Source of the DNA: Escallonia rubra
Lineage: Eukaryota > Streptophyta > Magnoliopsida > Escalloniales > Escalloniaceae
DNA length: 64,000 nucleotides
Assembly (NCBI GenBank): GCA_033065855.1
Contig: JAVXUO010001080.1
Coordinates: forward strand, 62,001 to 126,000
Direction: 5' to 3'
The notes beneath the pieces are model-generated. The model ran no database searches. It worked only from the letters and a program-made list of their open reading frames with translations, and was not told the origin of the DNA. Shown here piece by piece: positions 1,255 to 48,497 of the stretch (position 1 is its first letter; each line of letters begins with the position of its first letter). A program made the translations under genes and the position numbers.

Positions 1255-1967
1255 GGCCTCTAATATGCACCGCCCACTGCCACCACAACAAGCCAATCTA
1301 GCACTTTATTAATTTATAACACTTTAAAGATTTCACTGATTTGGGTAGATTGTATAAGTGGGTTTCCTTTTTCCTTCTAGATCTTGGTGCATTGAGTACT
1401 AATTGGTGAATCTTGGCTTTCGGGAATGAGGTTATGTTGTTAAAAGGGCAGAGATCTCTAATGAAGAGACGGAGGAGCAGCAAAAATATGGGAGAATGAA
1501 GAACCTAGCCTTATGATGGCCCTGTCTAGCGGCTCTGTTTTCGCGTAAATAGGGTAGGCAAGTGTCAAACAAGCAGCTCCTTGCCAATTAACCTGGCATA
1601 TATACTAGCTAACAATATCTGCTTAGTTGTCCAAAGTTAGGGCCTACTGAACCCCATTTTAGCGAGGAAAACGTGGTGCCTTTTTTTAGAGGATCAGCGA
1701 CTGTTTTGTTCACTCTATGCGCACGCGCCTCTGTCTGTGTGTGTGTATGCGTATCTATGTGTGTGTGTGTGTGTGTGTGTTTGTGTGTGTATAACTCTAT
1801 CTGTGTGGTATGTGCGTGTAACTTTTGGGGTGTGTGTCTACGTAACTTTGTACACGTGTATGAAAAAAGAGAGGGGGACTGCACCTTGGAGAGAACACGA
1901 GAGAGCAGGGTTAAGGGTTTGGGGGGTGGTTTAGGATGGGTTTTAGTTGACATAAGACCACCTTCAT
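1255..1967. other. Copy-A-only segment with GT microsatellite
   Basis: The flanks (CATG on the left, CAACTAATTG on the right) are contiguous in copy B near 45,352, so about 713 bp is either inserted here or deleted there. It contains a GT-rich microsatellite (1,734-1,790) and purine-rich DNA. I see no gene and no convincing transposon ends. Confidence 0.7.
1734..1790. repeat. GT/TG microsatellite
   Basis: This is an imperfect (TG)n tract with a few TA and TC interruptions. Open frames crossing it are low-complexity artefacts. Confidence 0.95.
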
Positions 1968-2464
1968 CAACTAATTGCCTTTGCAAGTATATTCGCTTTT
2001 TAAACACATGGCAGCCACTTTGTCGATCGTGTTTCCGGCTTCGAGATTATTTTTAAGACACATTTTCTATTTTGGTGAAGTTCTTTTACTACGTTTTCTA
2101 TAATCTTAGCTGCCTCTATTTTTGTTGACTTGCAGCATCATGTTTAAAGCTTAAGATTCTATCGAACCTTGAAAGCAATGGAAGCCTAAGTTATTACCGT
2201 TTTGCATAATGCCACCAGAGCAAAAGAAGAAGAAAAAAAATAGAGGGGAAAAAAACCTTCGTTGCCCATGGACATTCATGGCACTTGGTCATGGGTCGAA
2301 AGCATACCCGCCAGACTCGTACTCGCGGTTAGCTCCCAGACTAACCAAGTGCTGAGAGCCTCTTCCTTTCTTTGTAGATAATAAGTTCAAGTCTCATGAT
2401 CGAGGACATATTTGGGGTAAGGGAGGGGTGGAGGCTATCTCAGTGTATAGCTCGATACATTCAA

Positions 2465-3204
2465 CACCATCGGCCAAGAAACCACGAGTAGCTTTGAAGA
2501 TTACATCCTAGCAATCGGCAAGAGTCTTCGAACACGGCCAACCAAAATGGTCGGAAACAGCCCGAACCTAACCACCTCCGTCCAAATCCGAATCACCAGC
2601 CATTAGCAGCAGCGTCGTTGGCCTCCAAACTCACGCAACGGCACCGGAGAACAGCCTTCAACCTGGTTCTCTAACTCTCCTGATTTGAATTATTTTTTGT
2701 GTAGTTTGAAAAATGGTGATTTTTGCTGTGGCCGGTGATGAGTGCCTGTGCGTTGGAGGTAGTGGTATTTCGGCGCCGCTGCCTGAATCTGGCAATCGGA
2801 GAAGACCCATATACTACCCGGTTGCTGTGGAGTTAATCCTAGCGGCTGTAGTGGTGGATCGGCGGAGTTTCATAGCTGTGGTGGTGGTACTTTTGTTGGA
2901 TCTCAGGGGAAAGAGAGAGAGGAAGAAAAACCCAGATCTGGGCGCAGATCCGTGATTTGGCCAGAATCTGGAGTCGCCCGTGATTCTGCACGGGAGAAAG
3001 AAAGGGGAAGGGCGAAGGGCATTGTTGGTATATCATAATAAATTTGTGTTGCCCTAAATTTTTTTTACGGTGCCCTAACGGAAGTGGGTTTTGTGTAATA
3101 CAATGATAAACCTCAGGGGAGCGTAGTGTAATTTTCAAAAGATAAGGGGGTCCGTGTGTAATTTAGGGTAAATCTCAGGGGTGCCGTGAGTAATTAACCC
3201 TAAT
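2465..3204. other. Second copy-A-only segment
   Basis: Copy B has an unrelated stretch of about 50 bp (45,846-45,895) in place of this block of about 740 bp. The flanking sequence realigns at ATATTTATGAACTCCC. The right part repeats short phrases such as CTCAGGGG and GCCGTG, typical of degraded mobile DNA, but I found no matching inverted ends. No gene is supported. Confidence 0.6.
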
Positions 3205-5523
3205 ATTTATGAACTCCCTGAGATTATGGGCTAATCTCATGCGTGTCATAACTATATAAAATATCAAATACCTCCTTTAACAAAACAGTAAACAAACGCA
3301 GATACCGAATCTTCTAAAGTGGCTCATTTACCCCATCGTTCGTCTTGAATTTTCCTTTCACATGCCACACTCCCATCTTCATTTTCTTTCTTTACTAATT
3401 TCTTACAGAACACCCCCTCCCCTTCCTCTCTTGGTCTTCACCCACAGCCACCATACCTACTTGCAAGCCCACAACCACTCACCTCTGCCACAACGGCCAT
3501 CACCAGTCATGGTCCAACCCCCCATAGCCACCATTGCCAATCCACAACGACCCATCTCTGAATCCCCACCTCCGTCATCACCAACCACCGCCTAACTACC
3601 CACCAAACCCACTGCCACACCCGTCATCGCCTGACCGAACCCACAGCCTCAACCGCCACTTCTTAACGGAACCCCCCCACACCCATTTCCAAATTCGTAC
3701 CACCACCACCAACCCACTTAATCTCGACATCAAGACCCTCAAGCCCAACATTACCACAAATCCCAAGTTCCACCACAGCACTCCCCCAACACCAATCATA
3801 AATCTGCACACGCACTAATCTGCAAGCAAACGTACGCACACTTGCAGAAATGCCTCACGCACACAAGCACAAATATAGCTTCAGGTTTGAATAAAAGTGA
3901 CGGTGGATTTAACGTTTGTGGTTTGATTTATGTACAGATCTGCACAAACCCACACAATGAGGGTTGGATTTGAGATGACAGTGGCCCATGGTGGTCCTGC
4001 GACAATGCCAACAGCGGCTGTACCGGAAGTCAAATGGTAGGTGAAGAAGGTGGCTTGTAGTTTGGAATTGGTGCAAAAGAAAATTTTGTACGAATTATCC
4101 AGCGTAATTCCCAAGTCTAAAAGCTAATTTAGAACCGAAATGTGCCAACTTTTATCAGAATAAACTGCAATTCCAATATGCAGACGACCCAACTTATAAA
4201 AAAGCTTTAAATCCTAAGTGACAGAAGCAGCATATGCATACGATGAAACGAGCCACAGAGTCCATATACAACGAGCTGCATAAACAAAAATGAAAAGTGA
4301 GCAAGATCACCACCTGGATTTTACCTTTTCAGAAAGTACAAAAAGCACAAAAGAGAGCCTCAGGCAAGATAACAGTTCACTTAATCAACGTTCCCCATAC
4401 CCAAACAGTCCCCCAGTTTCAAGATGATTGGATGACAAAGTACAGACACCAACACCGCCAGCCATAACATATAACCAATTGATACCTTTTCATGGGTTGG
4501 GCCGGGTCTGCAAGCGAACCCACTGTTACACGCCGCAAGAATACTGCCTCTCATAAAAGGCAACGGATAGATAAGCAATCATGCACTATATTCGAAGGGC
4601 TGTGGCGGCTGAGGCTCCTCGTCAACAGCCATTGCTGAGGCTGGGGCCTGTTGTGCAGGTGCTGATCCAGCGGCAGCTGATGCTGTTGACGAGGGTGCAT
4701 CAGTGAGGGATAAAACTTCGGGTTCTGTTGGACGCAAGTCTTTTAGAAGTGCAAAACCAGAAACCGCTGACTTCACCGGCACGTATCTGCTGTCTTCCAG
4801 AAATTTAATGAATTTCTCCTGGGCAGGAACCACTCTGGCAGGGTTGGTCAAAATCTCAAAAGAAGGCTCAGGTTCGGCCTTCTTCTCAGCAGGAGCATCA
4901 ACCTACGAAAAGAATATAAGGGAAGGAACAAAAAAGTTATAACCTGTCTTGGCATATACAGAAGTTGTTTACGACACTTCGGAAAACAAAAAAAGGAAAA
5001 ACTCGTACAGTTCTAAGCTAACAGAGATGATGCAACTACAATATGTACCTGCATAGATTCCCCATCCTTATCACTAGATGATTTCCCTTTTCCTGTGTTT
5101 GAGCCACCTGACGATGCCACGGCAGCAGATGCATTTTCGTTGGCCTTCTCTGCCTCCTTTTTACTGGACCTCGACTTGGCTTTTGCTGACGTTGATAAAA
5201 TTGCAGTATGGAGTTTAACAGCGGATGTGGTGGTGGGTACAGTAGTTGGCCGAGGATACTCGAACAACGAAGGTTTTGCATGTGATAAGAACTCAAACTT
5301 AGGCACTTTCAAGTCATAGTTCAGTCCTATCAAGGCTGTGGGATAGAATGGCAGNCGAATGAAATAGATAAGCGGATACCAGTACCACAATTGGCTAAAA
5401 ACAGCAAGACCAACAACCGCAGTGGTGTTATCATGCTTTGTCTTGGAAAGCAACTTTATGGTCACATTCCTTCCACCATTCCTTCCACCAGCATCTAGAA
5501 TTCCAGAGGCTAAAATAGCACCC

Positions 5524-5934
5524 TGTTACGAAATTGCTCTAGATAAATATGTATAGAACACGATAACCAAATAAGAAAACACAAGAAATATGAGAGAACT
5601 CAAATCCACTTTGCACAAGTCAGATTTACAACGCTCCCTCACGTGTATATCTCAACTGTTTTCTTACTCAAAGAAGGACTCTTCTTCCTTTCTTCCCTAC
5701 TCAAGGAAATACTCTCCTCTCTTGCCCTCTCTTCTATCTTTCTTTCCTACTCAAAGAAAGACTCTCCTCTCGAGCCCGTAAACACGACACAAGACCCCTT
5801 ACTCATACTCGGAGATAAGCAGTGATCTTCTCTCTCCAAGCAATGGGGGACAAGATGTCTTATATACTAAGGGCCAAGTTGTAACCTTCTTTGAGTAACC
5901 GATGTGGGACATAAATACAAGACATATATCAACA
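5524..5934 (-). repeat. 3' LTR of the Copia element
   Basis: This LTR is 411 bp and starts TGTTAC and ends CAACA on the plus strand. It is longer than its partner because of extra CT-rich sequence in the middle. The same LTR family appears at 28,614 and 31,020. Confidence 0.93.
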
Positions 5935-8900
5935 ATCTCCACCTTGGCTTGTATTAACAGATCACTCCATGAGGAAAGTGTAATATGCCTTCAGTACCTT
6001 CTTCAGGTACTCCACCTTGCATCCCCTTTAAAGGTAGGGATACACTCCACCTTGAACTCAACAAGAAAGAAGATGAATCAAGCTCAAGCAATGCTTGAAC
6101 TTCTCTGTCGTGAGCATATCAGCAGCGTTGTCATTAGTGTGAACCTTGTGCATGACAATTTGTTTAGAATTAATCCATTCCCATACCCTATGATAACGTA
6201 CATCAATATGCTTGGTCCTTGCATGGAAAACCTGATTCTTTGCCAAATCCAATGCACTCTGACTGTCACACTGTAAAAAAACACCACGCTGCTTGAAGCC
6301 AAGCTCCTCTACCAGTCCCTTTAACCATAATGTGTCCTTAGCTGCCTCTGTCAATGCCATGTACTCTGCCTCTGTAGTTGGCAATGATGTCGTAGACTGT
6401 AACACTGATTTCCAACATATCGGCCCTCCATAGAATGTAAAAATATATCCAGTCGTGGACCTCCTGGAATCCAAGTCCCCAACATAATCAGAATCCACAA
6501 AGCCAGAAACCTCACCTTTTTCCCCATCACGATCAAACATGATGCCAAAGTTGGTCGAACCTGCTAGATAACGGAAGATCCACTTTACTGCATCTCAATG
6601 CTTATTTCCTGGATTTCCCATATACATGCTGACCACACTAACTGCATGTGAGATATCAGGTCTAGTACACACCATGGCATACATAAGACAACCAACCGCA
6701 TTTGCATACGGTACTCGAGACATATACTCAACATCTTCTACTGTACTAGGACAAAGTTGTGAGGATAACTGAAAATGAGCTCCTAATGGTGTACTAACCG
6801 GTTTAGCATTGAGCATACTAAACCTCTCCAGTACCTTTTCAACATAACTTTTCTGAGTTACCCATAACTTTCCTGCCTTTCGATCTCTATGAATCTCCAT
6901 ACCAAGGATCTTTTTGGCAGAACCAAGATCCTTCATATCAAACCCCCTGCTCAACAATTTCTTCAAGTGCAGAATATGAAACTTACTTTTTGCAGCAATC
7001 AACATATCATCCACATATAATGTAAGCAACAACAGTGAACCATCATCAAGGACTCGATAATACACAAAACAATCATACTCACAGCGAGAGTAACCATGAG
7101 TTACCATGAATGTGTCGAATCGCTTGTACCACTGCCGAGGAGACTGCTTCAAACCGTATAAGGACTTTTTCAGCTTACACACATAGTCCTTCTTCCCATG
7201 TTCAATAAATCTCTCAGGTTGCTGCATGTAGATCCTCTCCTCCAAATCACCATGAAGGAAAGCTGTCTTCACATCAAGCTGCTCCAACTCCATATTTTGC
7301 GTTGTTACAATGGACAATATCAATCTGATAGAAGTGTGCTTCACCACTGGCGAAAAGATCTCACTATAATCAATTCCCTCATTTTGAGAATACCATTTTG
7401 CAACCAGTCTTGCCTTGTACTTCTGATCTTCCTTTTTCCTGTAAATCCACTTGCATCCAATAGCCTTCACACCCTTTGGAAGTTTAACTAATTCCCAAGT
7501 CTGATTCTTCCGTAGAGATTCCATCTCCTCATCCATTGCTGTCAACCACAAGTTACCATCCTCTACCTTGACAGCCTCGTTGTAACTGGTAGGATCTCCA
7601 CTTCCCACAATTAGTGCAAACGAGACCAAGTCCTCAAAACCATACATCTGAGTTGGTTTCTTGGTACGTGGCTCTATATCTCTCACTAGATTCTAAGAAT
7701 CACTAGGATGCTCATATGTTGATCCATCTGTAGGCTCATCAGCTGATTTTGTCCTCTTCTCATGCAACTCTATCTCCACTGTGTGACCCTGCCTCTCGCT
7801 AGAAGTTGCATTCGTATTCAACATATGTGCTTCATTGAATACCACATCTCTACTAATCACCTTCTTCTTGGCCACTGAATCCCATAACCTGTATCATTTT
7901 ACTCCTTCATCATACCCAAGGAATATACATTTTTTGACTTAGGATCAAGTTTGGATCGTTCTTCATTCTGAAGATGAACATACGCAGGACAACCAAAAAT
8001 TCTCATTGCAGAAAACTTAACTTGTTTTTAAGACCATACCTCTTCGGGAACTCGGTGATTAATGGCAGATGATGGAGATTGGTTGATCAAGTAACAAGTT
8101 TTGTTAACAGCTTCAACCCAGAAACTCTTAGGCAAATCTGCATTCAACCTCATGCATCTAGCTCGCTCCAGCAAGGTTCTGTTCATCCTTTCGGCAACCC
8201 TATTCTGCTCTGGAGTCCTCTTCACTAAAAAGTGTCTAATGATACCCTTATCCTTGCAGAACTTCAGAAACTCATCATCCTTATATTCCATGCCATTATC
8301 TGATCTGAAGTACTTAAGCTTCTTACCCGTCTGATTTTCAACTCTAGCCTTCCACTGCTTAAACACATTGAAAACTTCAGACTTGTGCTTCATAAAGTAC
8401 ACCCATACCTTTCTTGAGAAATCATCTATAAACGTAACAAAGTAACGAGCTCCCCCATTTGAGATATGCTTGATTGGTCCCCAAACATCCGAATGTATAT
8501 AGTCCAGAACCCCTTTACTAGTATGAGAAGCTGCTTTAAAACTAACTCGTTTCTGCTTCCCAAAAACACAAAATTTGCAGAAGTCCAGCTTGTATGATTT
8601 CACTCCCTGCAGTAACTTGTGTTTGTGAAGTTACATCATACCTCCCTCGCTCAAGTGTCCCAGCCGTTTATGCCATAACTCAGAGTTATCATTGCTAGAA
8701 CCTGCATGAGTTGATACTGAAGCTCCACCTATAACTGTGTTCCCTATCAGTTTATACAAATTTCCAATTTTCTGACCTTTCATTATCACCATCGCACCTT
8801 TGCTGACTTTCATGACTCCACCTTTTATAGATATACTACAATCTATAGAATCAAGTGTGCCCAAGGAAATCAAATTCTTCTTCAAGTCACGTATGTACCT

Positions 8901-10053
8901 TACATCACCCAGGGTTCTCACAATCTCATCAAACATTTTAATTTTAATGGTACATATCCCCATGACTTTACAAACAGCGTCATTACCCATTAACACAGTA
9001 CCACCGTCACATGGAGTAAGACAATCAAACCATTCCTTATGTGGGCACATATGAAACGAACATGCAAAGTCAAGAAACCATTCCGTAGAAAAATTATTGA
9101 ATCTAACTGATAAGAGATTACCTTCTTGCTGCTCAACCGAGGAAACCAAGTAGAGATCACCATCACTGCTTTTGTCATCTTCTTCAGCAACATTAGCATT
9201 GTTCACATGTTTCTTTCCGTTCTTCTTCTCCTTCCTTTCTCGACAGTTTCTTACAATGTGACCAATCTCTTTACAATACCAGCATTCAATACTGGACTTG
9301 TCCTGCTTTCCATGAGACTTAGACCTGTCTTTTGCATGTCCTGGATTTCTGCTTCTAGATCGACCTCTACCTCTTCCGTGATCATTCTTATTTTCAGACC
9401 TTACCACCAGATCTTCGCCTTGACTGCTTGAACTCGTCCCATTAACTCTGCTCGAGTCCATAAGAGCCGACATAACATCATCAACAAGCAATGTCTCATT
9501 CCCAATAAGCAACGTAGTCTTCAAGGTCTCATATGATTTTGGAAGCGAAGATAACAACATAATCGCCTGATCTTTCTCCTCGAGTTTAACATCTATACTC
9601 GACAATTGGGACACCAACCGGTTAAATTCTGATATATGATCACCCAGATCTGAACCTTCATCCATCCGTAACTGGTACAGATCTTTCTTCAGATATAACC
9701 GATTCGACAAAGATTTTGACATATATATATCTTCTCCAATTTCTACCACAGAGCTGTTGGAGAAGTCTCTGTCAAAACCTGATACTTAACTTTCGGGGCT
9801 AGATTCAACCGTATCGTAGATACAACCTTAGCCTATAATTCCTCCCAATCGTCCTGATCCATTGAATCAGGCTTATTCCCCTGTAAAGGCTTGAGCAATC
9901 CTTGCTGCACAAGAATATCCTTCACCGTGCTCTGCCATATGCCAAAATTTGTCTTCCCATCGAAATTTTCACAGGCATACTTCATGGTCGTGTTGTTTGA
10001 CATATTTATCTTCTCAAATCGATTTTAATTTTGCCCAAAAAATAAACCTGGAA

Positions 10054-10065
10054 GCTCTGATACCA
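10054..10065 (-). other. Primer-binding site, tRNA-iMet
   Basis: The minus strand reads TGGTATCAGAGC two bases inside the 5' LTR, the standard plant initiator-tRNA primer site. Confidence 0.9.
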
Positions 10066-10067
10066 CT

Positions 10068-10428
10068 TGTTACAAAATCGCTCTAGATAAATATGTATAG
10101 AACAGGATAACCAAATAAGAAAACACAAGAAATATGAGAGAACTCAAATCCACTTTGCACAAGTCAGATTTACAATGCTCCCTCACGTGTATCTCTCAAC
10201 TATTTTCCTACTAAAAAAAAAAACTCTTCTTTCTTTCTTTCCTACTCAAAGAAAGACTCTATTCTCTTTCCCTTAAACACAATACAAGACACCTTACTTA
10301 TACTTGGAGAAAGCAGTGATCTTCACTATCTAAGCAATGTGGGACAATATGTCTTATATACTAAGGGCCAACTTGGAACCTTCTTTGAGCAACCGATGTG
10401 GGACATAAATACAAGACATATATCAACA
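10068..10428 (-). repeat. 5' LTR of the Copia element
   Basis: This LTR is 361 bp and is followed on the minus strand by the primer site. The outer edge abuts TACTCATGG of the RPN2 exon. Confidence 0.93.
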
Positions 10429-10682
10429 TACTCATGGTGTCTTCATGCTTATCCAAAATTATATCCAGTTGTCGCCTCGTATAAGATTACATGGTCAAAC
10501 GTTAAAAATTTTAAAAGAAACCAAATACAACAACAATAGTTCTTCGAATGCTTACCTGAATGCCCTAACCCGACTATCACTAGCTTCATTTATCTGGATC
10601 ATCACCATAGCCATGGAAATAAGAGCACCTTGGCGAACAAAATCATCTACATCACCAGTACCTACACAGGAAATGCCTGCTG

Positions 10683-22387: not shown

Positions 22388-25300
22388 ATGACGGGTGCTC
22401 AGACCAACAAGATATCTGCTGCTTCGGCCAGAGCTCACACCAGGAATACCGAGCACACCACCCCACTTCAATTTTCTTCAAGTTAGGATTTGTTGTCTTA
22501 CTAGTGTTTTTATTTTCAGATCATGGTTCCTTATTGAATTTGTTTGACTGATTTCAATCTTCTTCTTAGGCTAAACTGGGTATTGGTAGTAACAGTTGCA
22601 CTTTTGAGTAATCTTGATGGACTATAATATGCTAAATAGTGTCGATTTAAGTCTTATGTTTGGGAATTAATCACTAAGAGAATCTTCTTAACAGTTGTTG
22701 CCAATCTATTTGTTATACATTACAGCAGCAACTTCTCTGAAAATTTTATCCAATTTAGCCGTTCTGGATCAATCATCACAAAGATGCAGCAATATAAAAG
22801 CTCTCTAATTGTTAGTAGTAGCAATGGATAATCAGGACACGGATCCCCTGCTGTAACCCGTTACAGCAGGGTGCTGTGACTAATCCTATGGGTTACAGCA
22901 AGGGATCCGTATCCGGATAATCAAATGATACTCCTATTTCTGGAAAGGTCTTCTTTTAGGGACATAAGACCAAGATAATACTTGCTTCAATTGTGCAGCA
23001 TGTATTTGTGGCTGATACTCTTTGTCAAAAATCTTCTACCATAAAGAAACTACCTTATACGAGTTTAGTTGGAAGGAAAATAATATAACCCAAGTTCAGT
23101 TACACGGGATATGGCTGAATCGTATGCTCTTATTTGCCTTGTCAAGTATGGGATATAGCAGTAGATAAGTAGGTTCTGATTTTACTTAAAAGGAGCCTGG
23201 CATCTTGGAACTGACTGACTAAATAATTCCTAGTTAAGGCAATATGATACTCAAGGCTTCCACATTCTTACCTTGCCTGCAGTTGACTAGTTTTAGTTCT
23301 TGATGGTTCAAGGTGACCGGCGATAAGACTATTTGATCATAATCTCCCAATGTGATCTACTAGCATGGCACTTCTCGGATAAGCTGATATATTCATCTAG
23401 TGATGTCCAACTAACAAGAGCGTAAAAGGGGTATTGCATTTTGCTTATGCCTGGGATTTGCGCTCATTGTGATATCATGGCTGATTATAATGTCATGCAA
23501 TTGACTATCTCGCTAAGAAGACATGGCTGGCTCGAGAAAAAGTGATCGTGTTCAATGCGGATATATGAAGAAAATTAGTACGTCTCCTCTACTTACGGAA
23601 CTGATTTCATTGATGAAAGCTTTTCGATTACCAGGTTGGCAAAAGGTTTTCTATTTTCTGTACGGCAGCCAACACTAGAAATTCTATCGATAAATGCGGC
23701 ATCTATGTGGCACATTGGAATTGGCCTGAGAGACTGACCAAATTGTTATCGTCTGACAAAATACGACCTGCAGAAATGATTGAGACTCATTTCTTTCGTT
23801 ACTAAGAGAAATTCAGAATAACAAAATCAAGCGATGTTGGCATGCATAAATCCATCAGCTCCTTTACTTTCTTCGCATCTGGGTTGTATAATTGTTTAAA
23901 CACATCGCATCTCCACATTCTTGCGTATCTTATTGTCACGGACCGTTTGCTAAGGAGGCTGATTTTTAGAGGTTATGCCATGCGGGCGCTCATTAGGCGC
24001 TTACGGGACGCTTCGTGGACGCTTACTTGGCGATTACAAGGCAAGGCTTCCGGAAGGTTCCGGACTTCTCTACACTATTCTATTTTGAACATGTGTAAAA
24101 TGTGTAACATGTGTGAATATTCTAGAGTAGGAAAGTATTCTAGAATTCTAGAAGCATAATAGGATCCGTAGGATCGAATGTATCTCCACCGTCCGTTGAG
24201 GAGGTGGAGTAGTATATAAAGCCAAGGCCTCACTTGGCCAAAGCATCGAAGACACATCCAAGACATCTTTGTATTCAAGCTTTCTCCAAGTAGTATATTG
24301 GGAATCCTTTCCCCAACCTCTTGTGTTCCGCTGCATATTTGTTTCCAACTTCGCCTAACTCTACGGTTAGGCTGACTTAGCCGAGCAAGCGGGGGCTTGA
24401 TCTAGCTAAGTGCCGCACGGTTTCGGCTTAGGGAAGTTCGGTCCGTGACAAGTGGTATCAGAGCTTGGTTACGACGAGTCGTGCCAAGCAAGGAGCAACT
24501 ATGGCAGGCAAGGATACTAGCGTTGGAGCATCCGGAGTGGCCGAAGAGAATGTGGTCGTGGTCGAGCGTGGGCGAGATCCATTACCACCCGCCGGTGGGA
24601 AGAAGGGTGGTCGAGGCCAAAGCAAGTCTAGTGATGCACTTGCTTCGTTGGAGGGCCGAACGGGTCACTTGGAGATTGCTATGGGTGATGTCAAAGATCA
24701 CGTGGGAATGGTCGAGCAAAATCTACAGACGTTGGAGGATCACGTCTTAGAAGAGCTCGAGTCGCTCAAGAGGGCGGTGGGCGCCCAAGACGAGCTACGT
24801 GAAAGGTTCACGGAGTTGTTCACAAGTTTACAAGAACAACTCGATGTGGTGAAGGTTGGCGTGGAGGAGATAAGGCAAGACGCGGCGATGTGCAAGAGAG
24901 CTATCGCGGGTGGAGCGGTTGTCACTTCTAGTCCAAGGGTGGACACGCCAAAGCCAAAGGAGTTCGGAGGCAAGCGGGATGCCAAAGAGCTCGACAACTA
25001 CATATGGCACATGGAGCAATATTTCAAAGGTGCTGGCATCATGGATGAGAAGACGAAGGTAAGAACTGCGACTCTTTATCTTACGGATACCGCAACTCTA
25101 TGGTGGCGTAGAAAGCATTGCGAGATAGAAAAGGGGTTGTACGCCATAGATACGTGGGAGGTGTTCAAAAATGAGATCAAAAAGCAGTTCTATCCGGAAA
25201 ATGTAGCCTACGAAGCGAGAAAAAAGATGAAAGAATTGAGGCATAAGCGTAGCATAAGCGAATATGTGAAGGAGTTTACTACACTTATGCTTCATATTCC

Positions 25301-28300
25301 GAATATGGCGGAGGAAGATCTTTTATTCAACTTTGTCGACGGCCTCCAAAGTTGGGCCAAGAAGGAACTTCAACGCCGGGGCGTGAAGGATGTCGATGAA
25401 GCCATAGCAATGGCGGAGTCGTTGACGGAGTACGATCGAGGTGGTGAATCTTCAAAGCCAAAGTGGGAAGATGAAGCTTCGGAAGGCAACCACACCAATG
25501 GTGAGGGAGAGAGTGCGAAGGCGTGGAACAAAGGTGAAAAGCATGCTAGCACAAGCAAGACTGAGGGCCACGACAAGCTATAAGAAAGACGTGCGAGCCG
25601 AAAGCTTAAGGATTGCTTCTGTTGCGGAGGACCGCATTGGGCAAGGGATAGCCCGCGCCAAGGCAAGATGGCTTCCTTGATTAAAGAGAAGGAGAAGGCC
25701 GAGTGCGAGACGGTGCACATAGGCTCGATACAAGTCCTCAATGCGCTCCAAAAGAAAAATGTGCCGCAAGTCCCGACGGGTGAGGGACAAGCTTCTAAGA
25801 GCGAGGGGTTGCTCTACATGGAAGCGAAGTTGAATGGGAAGCCCGCTCATGTGTTAATGGATACGGGGGCGACTCACAACTTCATCACGATGGAAGAGGC
25901 CAAGCGGTTGGGCCTCAACGTGGTTGACGGGGGAGGTTGGCTCAAAATTGTCAACGCCGAAGCAAAGCCCCTACAAGGCACAGTTCGACGGGTAGAAATG
26001 TGTCTTGGCAAATGGAAGGGGTTCGTGAATTTCTCTGTCGCGCGGATGGATGATTTCAAGGTGGTGTTAGGCCTTGATTTCTTGCGACAGGTGAACGCTC
26101 TTGTGTCACCGTACGCCTGCGCGATGTGCATAATGGAGCGAGGCGCGGCTTGTGTGGTGCCTTTGTTCGGGGGAACATCGAGCACCATGACTTCTATGCG
26201 GCTATCGGGTATGCGACTAGTGCAAGAAGTCGAAAGGGAAGAAGCCAAGAAGAGTGAGGGCACTTACTTGGCGAGTCTCAAGGTTGAAGATCGTGTTGTG
26301 CTGCACGAGTTTGAGAAGCGGCAACCACCTAGGAGGAAGGTGGGCGATCAAGGCAAGCTTGACCGGAGGGCCAAGCTACAAAACGTGGTACCATGTGGGA
26401 TGGCACCACCAAAGGAGGAAAAGTTGTTGACTACTTCGAAGGCGAAGGGGGAGATCATCAAGCTAATCAAGGAGGGCCTACAGCGCGATCCCTTAGCCAA
26501 AGAATTGTTACAGCTTGTGAAGAGTGGGAAGACCCAACGATATCGGGTGAAAGGAGACCTACTCTACACAAAGGATGGACGAGTGTACGTGCCAAAGTGG
26601 AGAGACCTAAGGAAAATGGTCATACGAGGGAGTCACGACACTCAGTCGACGGTGCATCCGGGGCATCGACGAACATATGCCTTGGTGACTACGGCATACT
26701 TTTGGCCTCAAATGAAGAAGGAGGTGCAAATGTGTGTCAAGACTTGTCATGTGTGCCGACAAGTCAAGGGGGAGAGTCAAGCCGAGGAGGCTAAACTCTT
26801 AGATACATCGCAAGTTTTGCATGACTTGCAAAGGCGCGAGGCCGAGTACGTGCTTGGGGATAGGCTTGAACAAGGACGAGATGTTCCACCGAAGCAGCAC
26901 TACTTGGTCAAGTGGAAGGGATTGTCGGAGCACGAAGCGACTTGGGAATTAGCGAAAGAGCTCGGACAGTTCGAAGACCTCGTGGATCGCTATCACGAGG
27001 AGGTTATGACGAGGGCATCACGCAATTAGGTGGGGGAGAATGTCACGGACCGTTTGCTAAGGAGGCTGATTTTTAGAGGTTATGCCATGCGGGCGCTCAT
27101 TAGGCGCTTACGGGACGCTTCGTGGACGCTTACTTGGCGATTACAAGGCAAGGCTTCCGGAAGGTTCCGGACTTCTCTACACTATTCTATTTTGAACATG
27201 TGTAAAATGTGTAACATGTGTGAATATTCTAGAGTAGGAAAGTATTCTAGAATTCTAGAAGCATAATAGGATCCGTAGGATCGAATGTATCTCCACCGTC
27301 CGTTGAGGAGGTGGAGTAGTATATAAAGCCAAGGCCTCACTTGGCCAAAGCATCCAAGACACATCCAATACATCTTTGTATTCAAGCTTTCTCCAAGTAG
27401 TGTATTGGGAATCCTTTCCCCAACCTCTTGTGTTCCGCTGCATATTTGTTTCCAACTTCGCCCAGCTCTACGGTTAGGCTGACTTAGCCGAGCAAGCGGG
27501 GGCTTGATCTAGCTAAGTGCCGCACGGTTTCGGCTTAAGGAGGTTCGGTCTGTGACATTAGGTCATAACATGTTAGCAGTAACATATGTAGCGTATTTAC
27601 AGAGTTCTATGAGGAGAATAGGGCATTAGAAACAGAGAACAAAATTGTTCAGAAGAAAGGGGGCAAGGAGTCTTACACTACGATGAATCAAATAGCATCG
27701 GAGCCAAGGCCCACCAGTAAAGCATTGATCAAACCATCATCAGATAGGGGCTGACAGAATACGTTTTCCTTTTTGAAAGAGATGTTTAACCTCATAAAAT
27801 GTAACGACTGGCAGGACTATGGTGATGAACATTGTGTGATGCCATGAGCCGTACAAAATTTTCCAAAAACCAAAGTGCGTACCCCTTGTCACTGTTAGTG
27901 TTAGATTATTGTGATTATGTGTTTGTATGTATTGAAGTTCAAGACCCCAATGGTCTTGTTGTTTGTCCCACATTAGAGAGAAAAAACTCTCTCACGTTAA
28001 AACAAGCACATGTTACTTTCATTTGAAGTGTTTTGAGATATTTAATTTGGAGGGGAGCTTGTGAATGCTATTTTGCGGTGCGCATAGTGCATTTGGCGCA
28101 TTGATTTGTGATCTAATGGCCCAAATTTTTAACTGATTTTCGGTTCTTTCAGCCATTATTTGGTGACTTAGAAATAATTCTAGAAAAGCACCAGAATTAA
28201 CAGTTATTTCTGAAGTGGTGCCTTTAATAGTTTGTCTCTTCATGAAAGGGTGGATGTTAGTCTATAAGTTAAGGTTATAAAAATTCAGAACATTATCATA

Positions 28301-31300
28301 TTTTAAAATTCTCAACTTTAGAATTTCCTTCTTATCTTTTTTAGTTGCATACACAATTTCAAAGAGCAACTCTGAAACGAATGTTCTGAATTGTTATGTG
28401 CAGGTTGGTGGGTTCAGTAATTTTAGAGGTAATTAGTCATTAATCCTAGTGACGGCAAAATATTACCTTCACGATAATGTCTTTAAATGCGCCTCAAGTC
28501 ACTAAATTTAGTTTTTCTTCTTCAATTCTGCACATTTATCGTAACAGTCACATTTCAAAACTCAAGGGCGTATCATTTCTTTTGTCTGCTCTTCAATGTT
28601 TTTTCAGTGATCATGTTGATATATGTCTTGTATTTATACCCCACATCGGTTACTCAAAGAAGGTTGCAACTTGGCCCTTAGTATATAAGACATCTTGTCC
28701 CACATTGTTTGGAGAGAGAAGATCACTGCTTTCTCCAAGTATAAGTAAGGTGTCTTGTAGTGTGTTTAAATGAAAGAGAAGAGAGTCTTTCTTTGAGTAT
28801 GAAAGAAAGAAAGAAGAGTCCTTCTTTGAGTAGAAAAATAGTTGAGAGAAACACGTGAGGGAGTGTTGTAAATCTGACTTGTGCAAAGTAGATTTGAGTT
28901 CTCTCATATTTCTTGTGTTTTCTTGTTTGGTTATCATGCTTTATACATATTTATCTAGAGCGATTTCGTAACAAGTGGTATCAAGAGCTTAAAGGTTTAT
29001 TATTGGGAAACATTGAAATGGATGTGAGAGGATAAATATGTAGACAACACGACCATGAAGTATGCCTGTGACAATTCAAAGGGAAGACGAATTTTGGCAT
29101 ATGGCAGAGCACGGTGAAAGAATTGAGCGGTGCGATAAGGGATGTCGAAGCATGCATGAAGAGCGAGCTCGAGGCACTTGAAGCGGTACTTTGAAGCCCT
29201 CGACATCGACGAGGAGGATAAGGTACAACAGACTGTCTCAAGTCAGGTGGAGCTAATCTTTAATAGATTAGATGACTTGGAGGTAGACAGACGATTAGCT
29301 ATGCTAGAAAGGAAAGTTGATATGTTTGCAGAAGAGCTAAATGACTTGATCGAGGAGAAGGTCGCCCAATTTACCAAGTGGGAGGTGCAATGGCACAAGG
29401 ATCTCAAGGGACAAGTCACGGAGCTCCAAGAAGAACTAGCTGCTTGTAAGAAGGAGCTTACAAGAGGTACGAGGCAAGGGTGTATTGCGGTGCAGCCAAG
29501 GCAAAAAAAATGCCGGAGCCGAGATCGCACGATGGAGCGAGAGAGGCGAGGCAGGTGGATAACTTCTTTTGGCACTTGGAGTGGTACTTTAAAGCCCTCA
29601 ACATCGGTGATGAGGATGAAATAATGCAGATGATGACCATGTACATTATAGATACAGCTGCCTCATGGTGGAGGCGTCGCTATACGGATGGGTGCGACAT
29701 TAAAATGTGGGAGAAGTTCAAGCGTGAACTACAAAGGCAGTTATATCCGGATAGCATCGATGATAAACCTTCGACGGCTGAGGCAGAAGGGAGCATCCAC
29801 GAGTATGTGAATGAGTACTCGGCTTTGATGCTCGAAATACCGGAGATGTCCGAGAGGCAGCAATTATGCTTCTTCGTTGACGGGTTGCAGCAGTGGGTTG
29901 CCACAGCAGAGTTGCGGCGAAGGGAACCTCATGACTTGGCTTTCGCCATGGTGATTGTCGAGAGGTTGAAAGACTTCAAGCAAGGTGAGAGGCCGAGATC
30001 TCCAAGGCACGAGCGTGCCAAATATGGGGGAAAGGTAGGTCGAAGAGTGGCTCGCCCACGGCAATCGATGATGAGTGGAGTAGGACGAGGGACGTTGCAG
30101 CCATCATAAGGAGGAGAAGAAGCACGCCGGAAGTAGGAAGCGGGGTAACTCTTGTGATCATAAGGCTCTGGTGGGGCCTATGGGAGGATGCTTCTACTGA
30201 AAAGGGATTGCCCACACAAGAGCAAGATGATTGTGTTCCTCGAGAAGAAGAAAGGCAGCAAGGGGGATTCTTCCAACAGCGACAGCGAGGCACGCATGGG
30301 GGCTTTGCAGATGGTCAATGCGTTCGTGAAGAAGTCAAGGGAAGAAATTGCCAAGCGGAAGAAGAGCAAGAAGAAAAGAGGCTTGCTCTATGCAACGGTG
30401 GATATTGTAGGGAAGACTCAAGAAGGGCTTGTGGATGCCGGCCACCCATAACTTCATGAGTCTGAGGGTCGCCGGGTGGCTTGAGCTAAAACTAACTAAG
30501 GATGGGAGTTGGTTCACGGCCGTGAATGCCAAGGAGCGACCGACGAAGGGAGTCGTCAAGAACGTCAATTTAAGGATCAGTGAATGGACAAGGAAGGTCG
30601 ACTTCAATATCATCGACATGGATGATCTTGGGATAGTGCTTGGGATGGACTTCATGGAGAAGTCAAGTGCTACGCTCAATCCATATTGCGGGGGGATGAT
30701 GATGGCGGGTAAAGAAGGCCAACCGGAGTGAATGATCCGGTTGGTGTCCAAGGATAGGGCTGACGCACCTAAGGGCATTCCTGTGTTACAGCTGGACAAG
30801 GGATCGACGCTATGCTACGGTGAACAAAAGATGATGCCGATGACAGCGCAACCGATATGCTCACGAAGGCAGTCATGACTGTTAAGCTCAAGGTAGAGTA
30901 CAAGGTGAGTGCATCCCTACCTTTAAAGGGGATGCAAGGTGGAGTACATGAAGAAAGTACTGAAGGCATATTACCGTTTTCTTATAGAGTGGTTTGTTAA
31001 TACAAGCCAAGGTGGAGATTGTTGATATATGTCTTGTATTTATGTCCCACATCGGTTGCTCAAAGAAGGTTACAACTTGACCCTTAGTATATAAGACATC
31101 TTGTCCCACATTGCTTAGCTAGAGAAGATCACTGCTTTCCCCAACTATAAGTAAAGTGTCTTGTATTGTGTTTAAGGGAAAGAGAGGATAGTTTTTCTTT
31201 GAGTAGGAAAGAAAGAAAGAAGAGTCATTCTTTGAGTAGGAAAACAGTTGAGAGATACATGTGAGGGAGTGTTGTAAATCTGACTTGTGCAAAGTGGATT

Positions 31301-33990
31301 TGAGTTCTCTCATATTTCTTGTGTTTTCTCATTTGGTTATCATGTTCTATACATATTTATCTAGAGCAATTTCGTAACAAATCACTTGCTATATCTTCTA
31401 GCTATTAGCTGATGGTTATTTTGTTGCGTTGCTTACCTGTTGCATTGTCATTTCCCTCCTCCCACTCCCAGTAATGTATGTCCAGGTAGCACTAGCCATG
31501 GTGGGTGGTCTGCTAGGTTGGGCTTATGTAGCAACAAAGCCTCCCCCAGCCAAAGTTTGTGGATCACCAGGTGGGCCTCCTGTTACGTCACCGAGAATCA
31601 AACTCAGCGATGGGAGGCATTTGGCCTACAAAGAGACTGGGATTCCCAAAGAAGAGGCAAAGCACAAGATCATTGTCGTTCATGGCTTTGACAGTTCGAA
31701 AGACTTGAATCTACCTGTTTCCCAAGTATACCCAAATTCTCCTTGGACTTCTAATTATCTTTGAATCTCTGCTCTGAGATTTTGGATAAAACCCTTGAAA
31801 ACATTTACATTTGAAAAGCATCAGCATTCTTCATTGTGTACAAGCTACAAGAGCACATGTATAAGCATTCAAATCTGTTGAATTAGTAAACTAAACCTGA
31901 TTTGTGATCTACATGTAAGAAGGCATACGAAGAAGAAGAATAGGTTGATGTTTGAAGATGATTGCCAAAATTCTTGCACAAGTTTGTTGGATATGTAGTA
32001 TAGGCCTTTTGATATGCTTCTGAGTCTTGTTTTTGCATCTTCCTTTCTTAATTATGTCCTGAATAAGCATAACTTTGATGCATCTGAGATGTGCGAGCTA
32101 GTGTGCTATTACAAATAATAGAATTTGCTGATTTTCAAATTTCAGGAACTCATAGAGGAGCTTCGGATATACTTCCTGTCATTTGACCGAGCAGGGTATG
32201 GAGAGAGCGACCCGCATCCATTGCGCACGGTGAGGAGTGAGGCATTCGACATTGAAGAACTGGCAGACAAATTACAGATTGGTCCTAAGTTTTACGTGAT
32301 TGGACTCTCAATAGGTGCCTATCCTGTTTGGAGTTGCCTAAAATACATACCACATAGGCAAGCTCCTTAACTTAGTGTGCTTCATCTGTTTTCTCCCTAT
32401 TATGATGTTCCGAGTCTCTATTTTTGTCAATTTCCAACTCATATATATGCAGGTTATCAGGAGCTTCACTTGTAGTTCCATTCGTCAACTACTGGTGGCC
32501 ATGTTTTCCTGCAAATCTGTCCAAGGAAGCCTTCAAGATGCTGCTTGTGCAAAACCAGTGGGCATTCCGAGTTGCACATTACGTCCCTTGGGTGTTCAAC
32601 TGGTGGATGACTCAAAAATGGTTTCCTTCGTTAAGTGCGTTGACGGGAAACATGGCTGTTTTCAGCCGTCCAGATTTAGAAATGTTAAAGAAGTTGGCAG
32701 AGATCCCCAGTGTCGGTCAGGTAGATAACCCTCTCCATATGTTCTCTTTTTAATATCCGTTGCATATATAGATGTAGGCCTGTCCATGGATTGGGCCACA
32801 AGGGTTAAGGCTGGGCTCAATTGGGTTTTATCTATGAAAATGACTACGCGCATGATTGACTCGACCCTAGCTCTGACCCTACTCAACCCAGCCCAGCCCT
32901 GGCCCGATCTTAACCCACTGCTCATATTTATTTTTCTTATCAATAACTAAGTAGGAAAAACAAATTTAACTTTGTACTTCTTGTTTTAATGAAATTTAAT
33001 TTAATCAAAACTAAAATTGCTTATTTTATTCTTCTAATCAAAGACAAAAAAGGGTCGTCGCCACCCGCTACCGCCAACCCACATCGTGGCCACCACCGTA
33101 CGGCTCTCCGCCATTACCGTTCGGCTCTCCGCCACCATTACATCCCGACACTACCCACAACAATATAGCCACCAAAATGACAGCGCAAACTCTCCGCCAC
33201 CCCTGAACCCATAGCCACCAGCTTACTGTCTTTTGCAACTTTCTTCCAATAGATACTCTTTCTCGGTGGTTTCCCTGGGGTTAATGGTAGATCTACCGGA
33301 GGTTGAGAGATCTAGGGCATATCTGAAGATGGATGGTGGTGGTTGGTGATGATGATGGGTGGTCAATGGTGGTGGCTAGTGGCAACGACAGATGGTTGAC
33401 GGCGATCGTGGATCGTGGTCAGGGGTGGCTCTAGAAAGTCTAATTGAAGGGGCCAAAAAGACATAAAAAAAATGATGGCCAACATAAAAGAATTAAGAAA
33501 GTTTAAGTTCACATAAAATATCAAAATTAGAAGTAGTTCATCAAGGTTTCACAAAATAAGAAAATATAATAAAGTAAATCCATATATCGATGGTCAAAGT
33601 GGAATTCGCCGTTCTTTATAGTCACAAAAGTCATCAATGATCGAGTCTATAGTAAACGTCTCCACAATATATTTCTCAAAGAGTAAATATGTTACGATAT
33701 AAAAGGTAAAAAAAACACAACAAAATTAATTCCTAATTAATTTTAATGTTACGATATAATGACATTTTTGTAAATACGTTAAATGAAAAAAAAATCTAAA
33801 AAGTGGCTTAAGACGGTCGGTGCCTGATGTCTTACCTACAGTCAAAATGGTTGGGGTTATTGGAAGGGTGATGGTGAACAGCGACACTGTAGTGATTTAA
33901 AGGACGATGCAGGCCGGTGACGATGATGGTAAACGTCGACGGTGAGTGGTGTTGGCCGGCAATAGCGAGAGAGAGAGAGAGAGAGAGAGA

Positions 33991-44092: not shown

Positions 44093-47000
44093 AAGATCGA
44101 TCTTTTTCATAGAGGGGTAGAGGGTTCCCTTATTTCTTTACATCTAGTGAATTGCCTCTTCAGACCGTGTCGATAAATCAGCCTTCAGCCTTTGAGTGTC
44201 TAGTTCAAGAGCTTCCCTGAGTCAATATTAGTTTTGAAAGCTATCTCACATCAAGGAGCAGGACCAAGTGAGAACGGGACTTGAACAACAAGAAAAGTTG
44301 ATTTCACACGGTCAAGACCAAACCCGCAAGAACAAAAAAGAAGCACCTCACCGAAGGAGATTGCTTTTCATCCATCTCTGGAGAAAAGAAAGAATAGGTT
44401 TCCCTCCCCCCCCCCAAAGGCGGACCACCCCCATGGGCGGGGGGCGGGGGGGGGGGGGGGGGGGGGCATGGCAACCCTCAATATTTTTGAATTTTTTTTT
44501 AGTTTCTTAGATAATGTATAAACACATTTAAAATATTTTACAAAAATCCATTATATTGTAACGTTAATTCATTTTGTTTTGTCTTTTTACTCTTTGTGCC
44601 CTATCATAATCTGTATCATTGTCGTCTTCTTGCTCTATCTTCATTCTTCTAAATTCGAAATTCTAAATCTCTACATTACAAAAAAAAAAAAAAAAAAGTA
44701 TAGATTTAGGTTCGTTCTTTTTTTTTTTTTTAATTTTAAATTCTTATAGTTGGTTAACTTATACGTGACTAATGTACTCACATAGCTAATAATCACATTA
44801 GTAATATATTTATACAGTAAGAGTTAAGTTTTTTTCATACAAAGTTAGAAATTTATTTTTGATTAACCTTAGCAAGTTAAATAAATCACTATGCATAGTG
44901 AAAATATATTGTTAGTAATGAAATTAAGCAATCTATTTTGTACTTAACAGATTCAATAGTGACACTAATTATAATGTGTTTTTTATTATTCATGTTTTAT
45001 GTGAACTTGAGCTTCTGAATTCTTTTATGTTTGCCATCAAAAAATATATATATAATTTTTTAGTACCCCCGATTAAACTTTCTTGATCCCCCCCTCCCAC
45101 CCCCGGCCCTCTCCCCCTCTTCCTATACATGCGGCCGGGACCCAGCCACGGCCCAACACTGCACAACTCCATTATGCAGCCGTGACCCACCACGCCGCGT
45201 CCACCAACAACCGTAACCCACTCCTGCAGTCCTGTCGCGTTCATCGCGCAGCTGCACCCAACCAATCTTCTAAACCCAAGCCCACAACAACCCCAAACCC
45301 AAACCTACGACCAAAACCAAACCACCCCAAACCAAAAACCGCAACCAACATGCAACTAATTGACTTTGCAAGTATATTCGCTTTTTAAACAGATGGCAGC
45401 CTCTTTGTTGACCGTGTTTCCGGCTTGGAGATTATTTTTAAGACACATTTTCTATTTTGGTGAAGTTCTTTTACTACGTTTTTTATAATCTTAGCTGCTT
45501 CTATTTTTGTTGACTTGCAGCATCATGTTTAAAGCTTAAGATTCTATCGAACCTTGAAAGCAATGGAAGCCTAAGTTGCTACCGTTTTGCATAATGCCGC
45601 AAGAGCAAAAGAAAAAAAAATTAGAGGGGAAAAAAACCTTCGTTACCCATGGACGTTCATGGCACTTGGTCATGGATCGAAAGCATACCCAACAGACTCG
45701 TACTCGCGGTTAGCTCCCAGACAAACCGAGTGCTGAGAGCCTCTTCCTTTCTTTGTAGATAATGAGTTCAAGTCTCGTGATGGGGACATATTTGGGGTAA
45801 GAGAGTGGTGGAGGCTATCTCAGTGTATAGCTCGATACATTCAATGGACAAGATATAAAAAGAAGAAAGCTTCTTATAAAAAGTTTTTAGGGATAATATT
45901 TATGAACTCCCTGAGATTATGGGCTAATCTCATGCGTGTCATAACTATATAAAAACTATCAAATACCTCCTTTAACGAAACAGTAAACAAACACATATAC
46001 CGAATCTTCTAAAGTGGCTCATTTACCCCATCGTTCGTCTTGAATTTTCCTTTCACATGCCACACTCCCACCTTCATTTTCTTTCTTTACTAATTTCTTA
46101 CAGAACACCCCCTCCCCTTCCTCTCTTGGTCTTCACCCATAGCCACCATACCTACTTGCAAGCCCACAACCACTCACCTCTGCCACAACCACCACAACAC
46201 CACAACGGCCATCACCATTGCCGATCCACCATGACCCATCTCTGAATCCCCACCTCCGTCATCACCAACCACCGCCTGACTACCCACCAAACCCACTGCC
46301 ACACCCGTCATCGCCTGACCGAACCCACAGCCTCAACCGCCACTTCTTAACGGAACCCCCCCATCACCCCATTTCCAAATTCGTACCACCACCACCAACC
46401 CACTTCAATCTCGACATCAGGACCCCCAAGCCCAACATTACCACAAATCCCAAGTTCCACCACAGCACTACCCCAACACCAATCATAAATCTGCACACGC
46501 ACAAATCTGCAAGCAAACGTATGCACACTTGCAGAAATGCCTCACGCACACAAGCACAAATATAGCTTCAGGTTTGAATAAAAGTGACGGTGGATTTAAC
46601 GTTTGTTTGATTTATGTACATATCTGCACAAACCCACACAATGAGGGTTGGATCTGAGATGACAGTGGCCCATGGTGGTCCTGCGACAATGCCAACAGCG
46701 GCTGTACCGGAAGTCAAATGGTAGGTGAAGAAGGTGGCTTGGAGTTTGGAATTGGTGCAAAAGAAAATTTTGTACGAATTATCCAGCGTAATTCCCAAGT
46801 CTAAAAGCTAATTTAGAACCGAAATGTGCCAACTTTTATCAGAATAAACTGCAATTCCAATATGCAGACGACCCAACTTATAAAAAAGCTTTAAATCCTA
46901 AGTGACAGAAGCAGCATATGCATACGATGAAACGAGCCACAGAGTCCATATACAACGAGCTGCATAAACAAAAATGAAAAGTGAGCAAGATCACTACCTG

Positions 47001-48497
47001 GATTTTACCTTTTCAGAAAGTACAAAAAGCACAAAAGAGAGCCTCAGGCAAGATAACAGTTCACTTAATCAACGTTCCCCATACCCAAACAGTCTCCCCC
47101 AGTTTCAAGATGATTGGATGACAAAGTACAGACAACAACACCGCCAGCCATAACATATAACCAATTGATACCTTTTCATGGGTTGGGCCGGGTCTGCAAG
47201 CGAACCCACCGTTACACGCCGCAAGAACACTGCCTCTCATAAAAGGCAACGGATAGATAAGCAATCATGCACTATATTCGAAGGGCTGTGGCGGCTGAGG
47301 CTCCTCGTCAACAGCCATTGCTGAGGCTGGGGCCTGTTGTGCAGGTGCTGATCCAGCGGCAGCTGATGCTGTTGACGAGGGTGCATCAGTGAGGGATAAA
47401 ACTTCGGGTTCTGTTGGACGCAAGTCTTTTAGAAGTGCAAAACCAGAAACTGCTGACTTCACCGGCACGTATCTGCTGTCTTCCAGAAATTTAATGAATT
47501 TCTCCTGGGCAGGAACCACTCTGGCAGGGTTGGTCAAAATCTCAAAAGAAGGCTCAGGTTCGGCCTTCTTCTCAGCAGGAGCATCAACCTACGAAAAGAA
47601 TATAAGGGAAGGAACAAAAAAGTTATAACCTGTCTTGGCATATACAGAAGTTGTTTACGACACTTCGGAAAACAAAAAAAGGAAAAACTCGTACAGTTCT
47701 AAGCTAACAGAGATGATGCAACTACAATATGTACCTGCATAGATTCCCCATCCTTATCACTAGATGATTTCCCTTTTCCTGTGTTTGAGCCACCTGACGA
47801 TGCCACGGCAGCAGATGCATTTTCGTTGGCCTTCTCTGCCTCTTTTTTACTGGCCCTAGACTTGGCTTTTGCTGACGTTGATAAAACTGCAGTAGGGAGT
47901 TTAACAGCGGATGTGGTGGTGGGTACAGTAGTTGGCCGAGGATACTCGAACAACGAAGGTTTTGCATGTGATAAGAACTCAAACTTAGGCACTTTCAAGT
48001 CATAGTTCAGTCCTATCAAGGCTGTGGGAGAGAATGACAAGCTAATGAAATAGATAAGCGGATACCAGTACCACAATTGGCTAAAAACAGCAAGACCAAC
48101 AACCGCAGTGATTTTATCATGCTTTGTCTTGGAAAGCAACTTTATGGTGACATTCCTTCCACCAGCATCTAGAATTCCAGAGGCCAAAATAGCACCCATC
48201 TTACTCATGGTGTCTTCATGCTTATCCAAAATTATTTTCTCCAGTTGTCGCCTAGTAAAAGATAACATGGTCAAACGTTAAAGATTTTAAAAGAAACCAA
48301 AAACAACAACAATAGTTATTCGAATGCTTACCTGAATGCCCCAACCCGACTATCACTAGCTTCATTTATCTGGATCATCACCATAGCCATGGCAATGAGA
48401 GCACCCTGGCGAACAAAATCAACTACATCCGATGTCAGAGGCTCTAGTAATGAAATGGCCTCGCTCAGACCAGTGCCTGCACAGGAAATGCCTACTG
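44093..48497 (+). repeat. Segmental duplication, copy B
   Basis: This is the counterpart of 1-10,682. It runs from AAGATCGATC through the RPN2 3' flank and exons 13, 12 and most of 11 of the functional gene, ending near 48,497. It lacks the Copia element and both copy-A-only blocks of about 0.7 kb. It includes a poly-G run of 21 (44,446-44,466), where copy A has 11. Confidence 0.95.
44435..44466. repeat. Poly-G tract
   Basis: GGGGGGC is followed by 21 consecutive G, with a C-run upstream (44,406-44,415). The homologous site at 341-360 in copy A is shorter and interrupted. It is prone to slippage and to sequencing error. Confidence 0.9.

Follow-up and report, generated by a model that had tools for sequence, protein, structure and literature searches.

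A mobile family of LTR retrotransposons in Escallonia rubra with Copia ends around a Ty3-type gag and protease

Within a 64,000-nucleotide stretch of the Escallonia rubra genome (hereafter the window) lies a chimeric long terminal repeat (LTR) retrotransposon of 2,766 bp (28614–31379), in which Copia ends surround a Ty3-type gag and protease. The element, on the plus strand, is bounded by a Copia-type 5′ LTR (28614–28973) and a 3′ LTR (31020–31379), each of 360 bp (TGTTGAT...GTAACA) and 91.7% identical to one another. The 5′ LTR is followed by a Copia leader that extends into the first gag codons (28974–29122), as delimited by a MAFFT alignment with a Copia element in the window (the local Copia) and 31 other chimera loci. 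The leader holds a primer binding site (PBS), TGGTATCAAGAGC, at 28976–28988, which occupies the same position in the local Copia and which we take to be of the initiator-methionine type; at 29038–29043 the window sequence reads ATGTAG, that is, the Copia gag start codon and an immediate stop. The interior comprises a single unit of the coiled-coil N-terminal part of a Ty3-type gag (29123–29624), the gag capsid region in a frame of 219 amino acids (aa) (29450–30109; Pfam Retrotrans_gag, PF03732, E 5.4e-8) and the remnant of a retropepsin-like protease in a frame that differs from that of gag (30411–30731; RVP_2, PF08284, E 3.8e-6). Alignment to the local Copia places the C-terminal tail of a Copia RNase H and the 3′ untranslated part at 30839–31005; these precede a sequence resembling a polypurine tract (PPT), GCCAAGGTGGAGAT, at 31006–31019. 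Short target repeats flank the element: GATCA (28609–28613) and AATCA (31380–31384), identical at four of five bases.

The first ~508 bp of the chimera are 90.4% identical to the local Copia (window 10429–9918, minus strand), and the match resumes from about 30839 to the element's end. An earlier note on this DNA had matched the LTRs, primer site, first and last internal segments and purine tract to the local Copia and had assigned the middle to a Ty3-type gag and protease: both assignments agree with the alignments and Pfam matches. It had also placed the 5′ junction near 29,120 and called the target repeat near-perfect; the junction is real and lies nearer 29122, and the repeat carries one mismatch. 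Between about 29122 and 30839 there are only short matches to the local Copia, at chance level, and the Copia Gag and RVT_2 by which an autonomous Ty1/Copia element is recognized are missing. Apart from the short Copia RNase H tail, Pfam found no reverse transcriptase (RT), RNase H or integrase domain in five frames from the window and three long frames from other copies; nor do these ends and Pfam-scanned frames hold Ty3 LTRs, a Ty3 RT or a chromodomain integrase, the LTRs being those of Copia. Because gag and protease sit in different frames, and because the LTRs have diverged to 91.7% identity, the window copy is old and dead.

The chimera is not confined to the window. Searches covered the 566 Mb host genome (3,222 contigs), the DNA search scoring 38 of 1,254 first-look candidates; in all, 38 loci, the window's own among them, were dissected. 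The 5′ junction has 166 matches genome-wide at up to three mismatches, and a gapped pattern for the 3′ junction has 73 exact matches; reversed-pattern controls gave 0 in both cases, which rules out a chance origin of the matches. At the same limit of three mismatches the matching Copia leader occurs at 138 sites (control 0), although such site counts vary with the pattern used and the mismatch limit. By eye, the Copia leader gives way to the Ty3 part at one place in nearly all of 32 aligned loci (the junction is lost in L010 and L043 and partly lost in L041), and in 33 aligned loci the sequence reverts to Copia at one place, apart from small indels. At both junctions the alignment runs directly from Copia to the gag-protease region. 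Copia contributes the LTRs, the primer site, a leader that includes ~85 bases from the start of gag, the RNase H tail and the purine tract; nearly its whole coding region has given way to the gag-protease stretch of a Ty3-type element.

Two measurable LTRs were found at 30 of the 38 loci. Perfect 5-bp target repeats flank 24 of these 30 copies, and all 24 repeats differ; a further four, including the window copy, have one mismatch, and two (L022, and L020, where the end is shifted) were scored as non-matching. A PPT is present in all 30; L033 has no PBS and L019 a degenerate one. The two LTRs of a copy are between 91.7% (the window copy) and 100% identical: L018 and L026 have no substitutions between their LTRs, those of L026 differing in length (387 and 505 bp), and the LTRs of L025 are 99.2% identical. 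The different target repeats and the copies with 100% LTR identity show that the chimera has been mobile, and moved as a unit, as the earlier note had concluded from the window copy. The two grounds on which the note would have given up a family, a lone copy or junctions that vary between copies, do not apply: the junctions recur genome-wide and the perfect target repeats differ, so the chimera is a mobile family with two common junctions, whose copies inserted independently, some of them recently. That the window copy might instead be a nested insertion or an assembly artefact is a suspicion with precedent, since mixtures of this kind often are artefacts: REXdb discarded all apparent chimeras as probable mispredictions (PMC6317226). 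Set against junctions at 166 and 73 sites, zero control matches, direct passage from Copia to gag-protease at both junctions and different target repeats, this explanation is ruled out for practical purposes. Separately, L010 (2303–3015) and L034 (1869–5148) are rearranged, with adjacent inverted pieces of the chimera, and are perhaps self-nested insertions.

The beginning of the Copia gag has been disabled in a characteristic way. ATGTAG stands at the Copia gag start in 31 of the 33 chimera loci that retain the site (five of the 38 do not); the exceptions are L010, which is rearranged there, and L035, which has ATGTCG. By comparison, the 14 Copia leaders that were read have ATG followed by TCG, TCA or TTG, and none has ATGTAG. 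Slightly downstream, a one-base deletion relative to the Copia leaders is found in all 28 chimera loci readable at that point (10 were unread). The present state is thus not an in-frame fusion of Copia Gag and Ty3 Gag. Because junctions and lesions of the Copia start are shared, we infer a single origin of the family. L035 (1980–1990), the sole chimera locus with ATGTCG, may preserve an earlier state, have reverted or have exchanged sequence with Copia. With the Copia start closed by a stop, the Ty3 part is where translation probably begins, most likely at the first methionine of the long frame, residue 29 of P0001, the protein of L026.

In some copies gag and protease occupy a single stop-to-stop frame, of 734 codons in L026, 742 in L025, 738 in L021 and 852 in L022; seven further copies have frames of 631–724 codons. 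P0001 matches Ty3_capsid (E 9.7e-10), Retrotrans_gag (7.1e-10) and an aspartyl protease (2.1e-7), and it shows the protease motif, DTGATHNF, as well as a CCHC-like stretch. The Pfam scan of long frames also gave a RILP coiled-coil match over the cut-off, which is read as coiled-coil likeness only. The coiled-coil unit, ~396 bp long, is present one to four times per locus (once in 5 loci, twice in 26, three times in 4 and four times in 2; 37 of the 38 loci had a match). In younger copies the frame continues, at the 3′ end, into that of the Copia RNase H and terminates at the RNase H stop; other copies terminate in a different frame. Significant similarity between P0001 and the local Copia is limited to the two ends of the protein. 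Its alignments with the chromodomain Ty3 element of the window (34% identity over 309 aa, E 3e-45; 32% over 181 aa, E 6e-33) take in the capsid, the CCHC-like stretch, the protease and some of the coiled coil. The gag of this element is also by far the nearest to the capsid part among the 11 Ty3 gags compared, at 38.7% over 199 aa and 140 bits; the runner-up scores 54 bits. At only 34% identity, however, it is ruled out as the direct donor of the gag-protease region, and the ten other sampled gags, at 54 bits or less, are weaker candidates still. Searches of viral contigs, tRNA, Rfam and PDB sequences (best E 0.21) gave nothing useful.

The LTRs tell a different story from gag: those of the chimera are about as near to Copia LTRs as to one another, while gag is more diverged. 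Fourfold-site distance in capsid-protease exceeds LTR distance in 76 of 78 chimera pairs (medians 0.101 and 0.044), and the median distance from chimera LTRs to those of young Copias is 0.0345 (9 of the 14 Copias sampled; the other five, older or truncated, were left out). With only 14 Copias in the sample, one of them truncated, the nearest LTR is that of a Copia for 13 of 28 chimeras and that of another chimera for 13, with two ties. For 12 of 13 long-frame copies the nearest of the 14 Copia LTRs lies at 0.005–0.040 substitutions per site; for the remaining copy, L009, the distance is 0.057. One copy is itself a mosaic: the capsid-protease part of L025 is 99.6% identical to L026, and its 5′ LTR and tail are 100% and 99.6% identical to L027. 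This mosaic and the closeness of the LTRs fit template switching among co-replicating RNAs, those of Copia included. Candidate helpers are at hand. The RT of the local Copia has 118 matches in the genome (7,321 first-look candidates, 116 scored); six close copies (94–96%) have open frames of 1,329–1,333 aa and one (93%) has a frame of 1,432 aa, openness being judged by frame length. We infer that the missing enzymes are supplied in trans by Copia.

A Ty3 helper was also considered: the chimera's Gag-protease might co-assemble with the Gag-Pol of a related chromovirus, whose RT and integrase would then act on the RNA. The gag and protease are of Ty3 type, and many of the Ty3 gags scored in the genome (150 of 4,170 candidates) form part of open frames that reach or exceed ~1,500 aa. 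Target repeats of 5 bp are compatible with mobilisation by either Ty3 or Copia. The ends, PBS context and PPT are nevertheless those of Copia, a close Copia LTR exists for nearly every long-frame copy, and no closely similar gag was found in the window element or the 10 sampled gags. Mobilisation by a chromovirus is therefore improbable.

The explanation that we favor, and to which we give a probability of roughly two in three, is that the chimera is a non-autonomous family spanning two superfamilies: a satellite resembling the TR-GAG elements, which would make a Ty3-type Gag-protease, borrow RT and integrase from Copia and recombine with Copia RNA. Copia LTRs would drive transcription, and translation from the methionine in the Ty3 part would yield the Gag-protease. 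The chimera and Copia RNAs would be copied together by the borrowed Copia enzymes, and template switching would therefore keep renewing the chimera's LTRs from those of Copia. The Ty3-type Gag would probably aid its own RNA, by forming a particle or by joining one, and may thus be the chimera's own capsid. The earlier note had offered template switching or a parasite with its own capsid; on balance the evidence points to a combination of the two, template switching being favored by the L025 mosaic and the closeness of the LTRs to those of Copia, and use of the protein by the open frames of young copies. A bolder form of the idea is that the class of capsid has been swapped: the Ty3-type Gag-protease would assemble around an RNA bearing Copia packaging and replication signals and recruit Copia RT and integrase, in an element that has come to equal or outnumber its helper (166 sites, against 138 for Copia). 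This we hold only tentatively, as something possible rather than probable.

Much depends on whether the protein is in use. Of the 14 copies whose LTRs are at least 97% identical, 10 have a frame of 600 codons or longer; among the 16 with less similar LTRs only one does (P = 4e-4, both cut-offs having been picked after the data were seen). Over all 30 copies, frame length and LTR identity have a rank correlation of 0.63 (P = 2e-4). In the 13 long-frame copies the ratio of nonsynonymous to synonymous changes is 82:51 for shared changes (those present in two or more copies) versus 130:40 for singletons (P = 0.006). These counts exclude alignment columns covered by fewer than 11 of the 13 copies, as well as codons with differences at two or more bases; earlier, stronger-looking selection counts were set aside for transition-aware ones and the contrast of shared with singleton changes. 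There is thus moderate support, from sequence comparison, for the view that mobilised copies carried a working frame.

Several observations weigh against the favored explanation. Relative to the transition-aware neutral expectation the signal of purifying selection is weak (ratio 0.71 for shared changes, z −1.94; 1.29 for singletons). The long frame's first methionine has several ATGs upstream of it. In L018, whose LTRs are identical, the beginning of the frame is missing, and L003, with LTR identity of 99.0%, has a frame of only 242 codons; some recent copies were thus mobilised without a full protein of their own, or soon lost it. Between L025 and L027 the 3′ LTRs are only 97.1% identical, the two LTRs of L027 themselves differing by 2.7%. 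A split between Copia and chimera is not significantly rejected by the LTR trees (p-AU 0.087 with 8 Copias, 0.061 with 14), and the LTRs may simply evolve slowly. Finally, comparison with the window element and the 10 sampled gags did not find the Ty3 donor.

Some of these observations are what would be expected of a passive hitchhiker, in which the Ty3 segment is cargo and Copia proteins package, copy and integrate the RNA by way of the retained Copia signals, the frame being incidental or recently decaying. The cis-acting parts of Copia are indeed retained, the selection signal is weak, L018 and L003 are young and lack a full frame, and the upstream ATGs may hinder translation. Against this reading stand the concentration of long frames in young copies, the lower nonsynonymous share among shared changes than among singletons, and the frame of L022, open with three coiled-coil units; we regard the hitchhiker as unlikely, though worth keeping in view. 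If the protein is preserved, as it appears to be, it might alternatively hamper other elements instead of packaging its own RNA, for which dominant-negative Gag in yeast offers a comparison. Control of this kind has been discussed for TR-GAG proteins (PMC7765848), but a factor acting in trans would not obviously favor its own copies, and we give this role very little weight.

The remaining features of the window concern the neighbors of the chimera. The local Copia, of the type that forms the chimera's shell, is a broken copy on the minus strand (5524–10428; RVT_2, E 1.1e-72) with no clear flanking target repeat. Its flanks belong to a segmental duplication of 90–97% identity (1–5523 with 44093–48197, and 10429–10653 with 48202–48429), one half of which is without the Copia, at about 48197–48202. 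The Ty3 element on the plus strand (23934–27557) encodes gag, protease, H2C2 (an integrase zinc domain) and a chromodomain, and is the nearest relative found of the chimera's gag-protease; it has 517-bp LTRs, 98.5% identical, no RT was seen in its frames, and this element, too, is probably non-autonomous and a recent product of deletion. Exon-like frames (31402–32753) with a GLSIGAYP motif, presumably of an alpha/beta hydrolase gene, start just past the 3′ end of the chimera; the first frame has no Pfam match.

Partnerships between parasite and helper have parallels. In barley, as Tanskanen reportedly described in 2007, the parasite BARE-2 and its helper BARE-1 share LTRs, BARE-2 having lost its gag start and kept pol, so that it is without Gag. 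The chimera is the reverse: pol is lost and a foreign Gag is supplied. In soybean, Du is said to have reported in 2010 LTR swapping in which a non-autonomous element takes the LTRs of its helper, within one superfamily. Pairwise recombination between co-replicating family members is likewise known from ONSEN (PMC5668417), but there it takes place within one family, whereas the origin of the chimera spans two superfamilies. With Ty3 chromoviruses the chimera shares the Ty3-type capsid and protease (Ty3_capsid E 9.7e-10; 34% identity to the chromodomain element).

The closest likeness is to TR-GAG elements: short, non-autonomous LTR elements with Gag, or Gag and protease, only; the chimera shares this layout, down to the two LTRs with PBS and PPT. 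Transposition of a TR-GAG has been seen in Arabidopsis ddm1 (PMC8704663), and the Inpactor rule for the class, 'only GAG, or GAG and AP' (PMC6022998), fits the chimera. The difference lies in provenance. Gag and LTRs usually come from one superfamily in TR-GAG, although this is not a defining feature, and in the chimera they do not: AT5TE33540 matches one autonomous family, ATCOPIA63 (PMC8704663), whereas the chimera joins Copia LTRs to a Ty3 Gag-protease. TR-GAG Gags may be Copia or Gypsy like, with no statement of mismatched LTRs in the available text (PMC7765848). No report of a Copia-LTR family with a Ty3 Gag was found in the literature searched, which lay mostly outside subscription journals and did not include the original TR-GAG paper. 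The chimera is best read as a satellite akin to TR-GAG, with a Gag taken from the other of the two LTR superfamilies.

The family in E. rubra shows that a chimera of Copia and Ty3 need not be spurious but can exist, move and reach high copy number, and hence that chimera filters can hide biology: REXdb removed apparent chimeras as likely mispredictions, and InpactorDB filtered out elements with domains of two superfamilies as potential chimeras (PMC7910972). The Inpactor rule, for its part, would class the chimera as an ordinary TR-GAG (PMC6022998). Two matters become testable: the interchange of capsid and polymerase modules between LTR superfamilies, and the means by which a non-autonomous element keeps up with the LTRs of its helper. 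If a swap of capsid class did take place, Gag and Pol of two LTR superfamilies would be able to work together.

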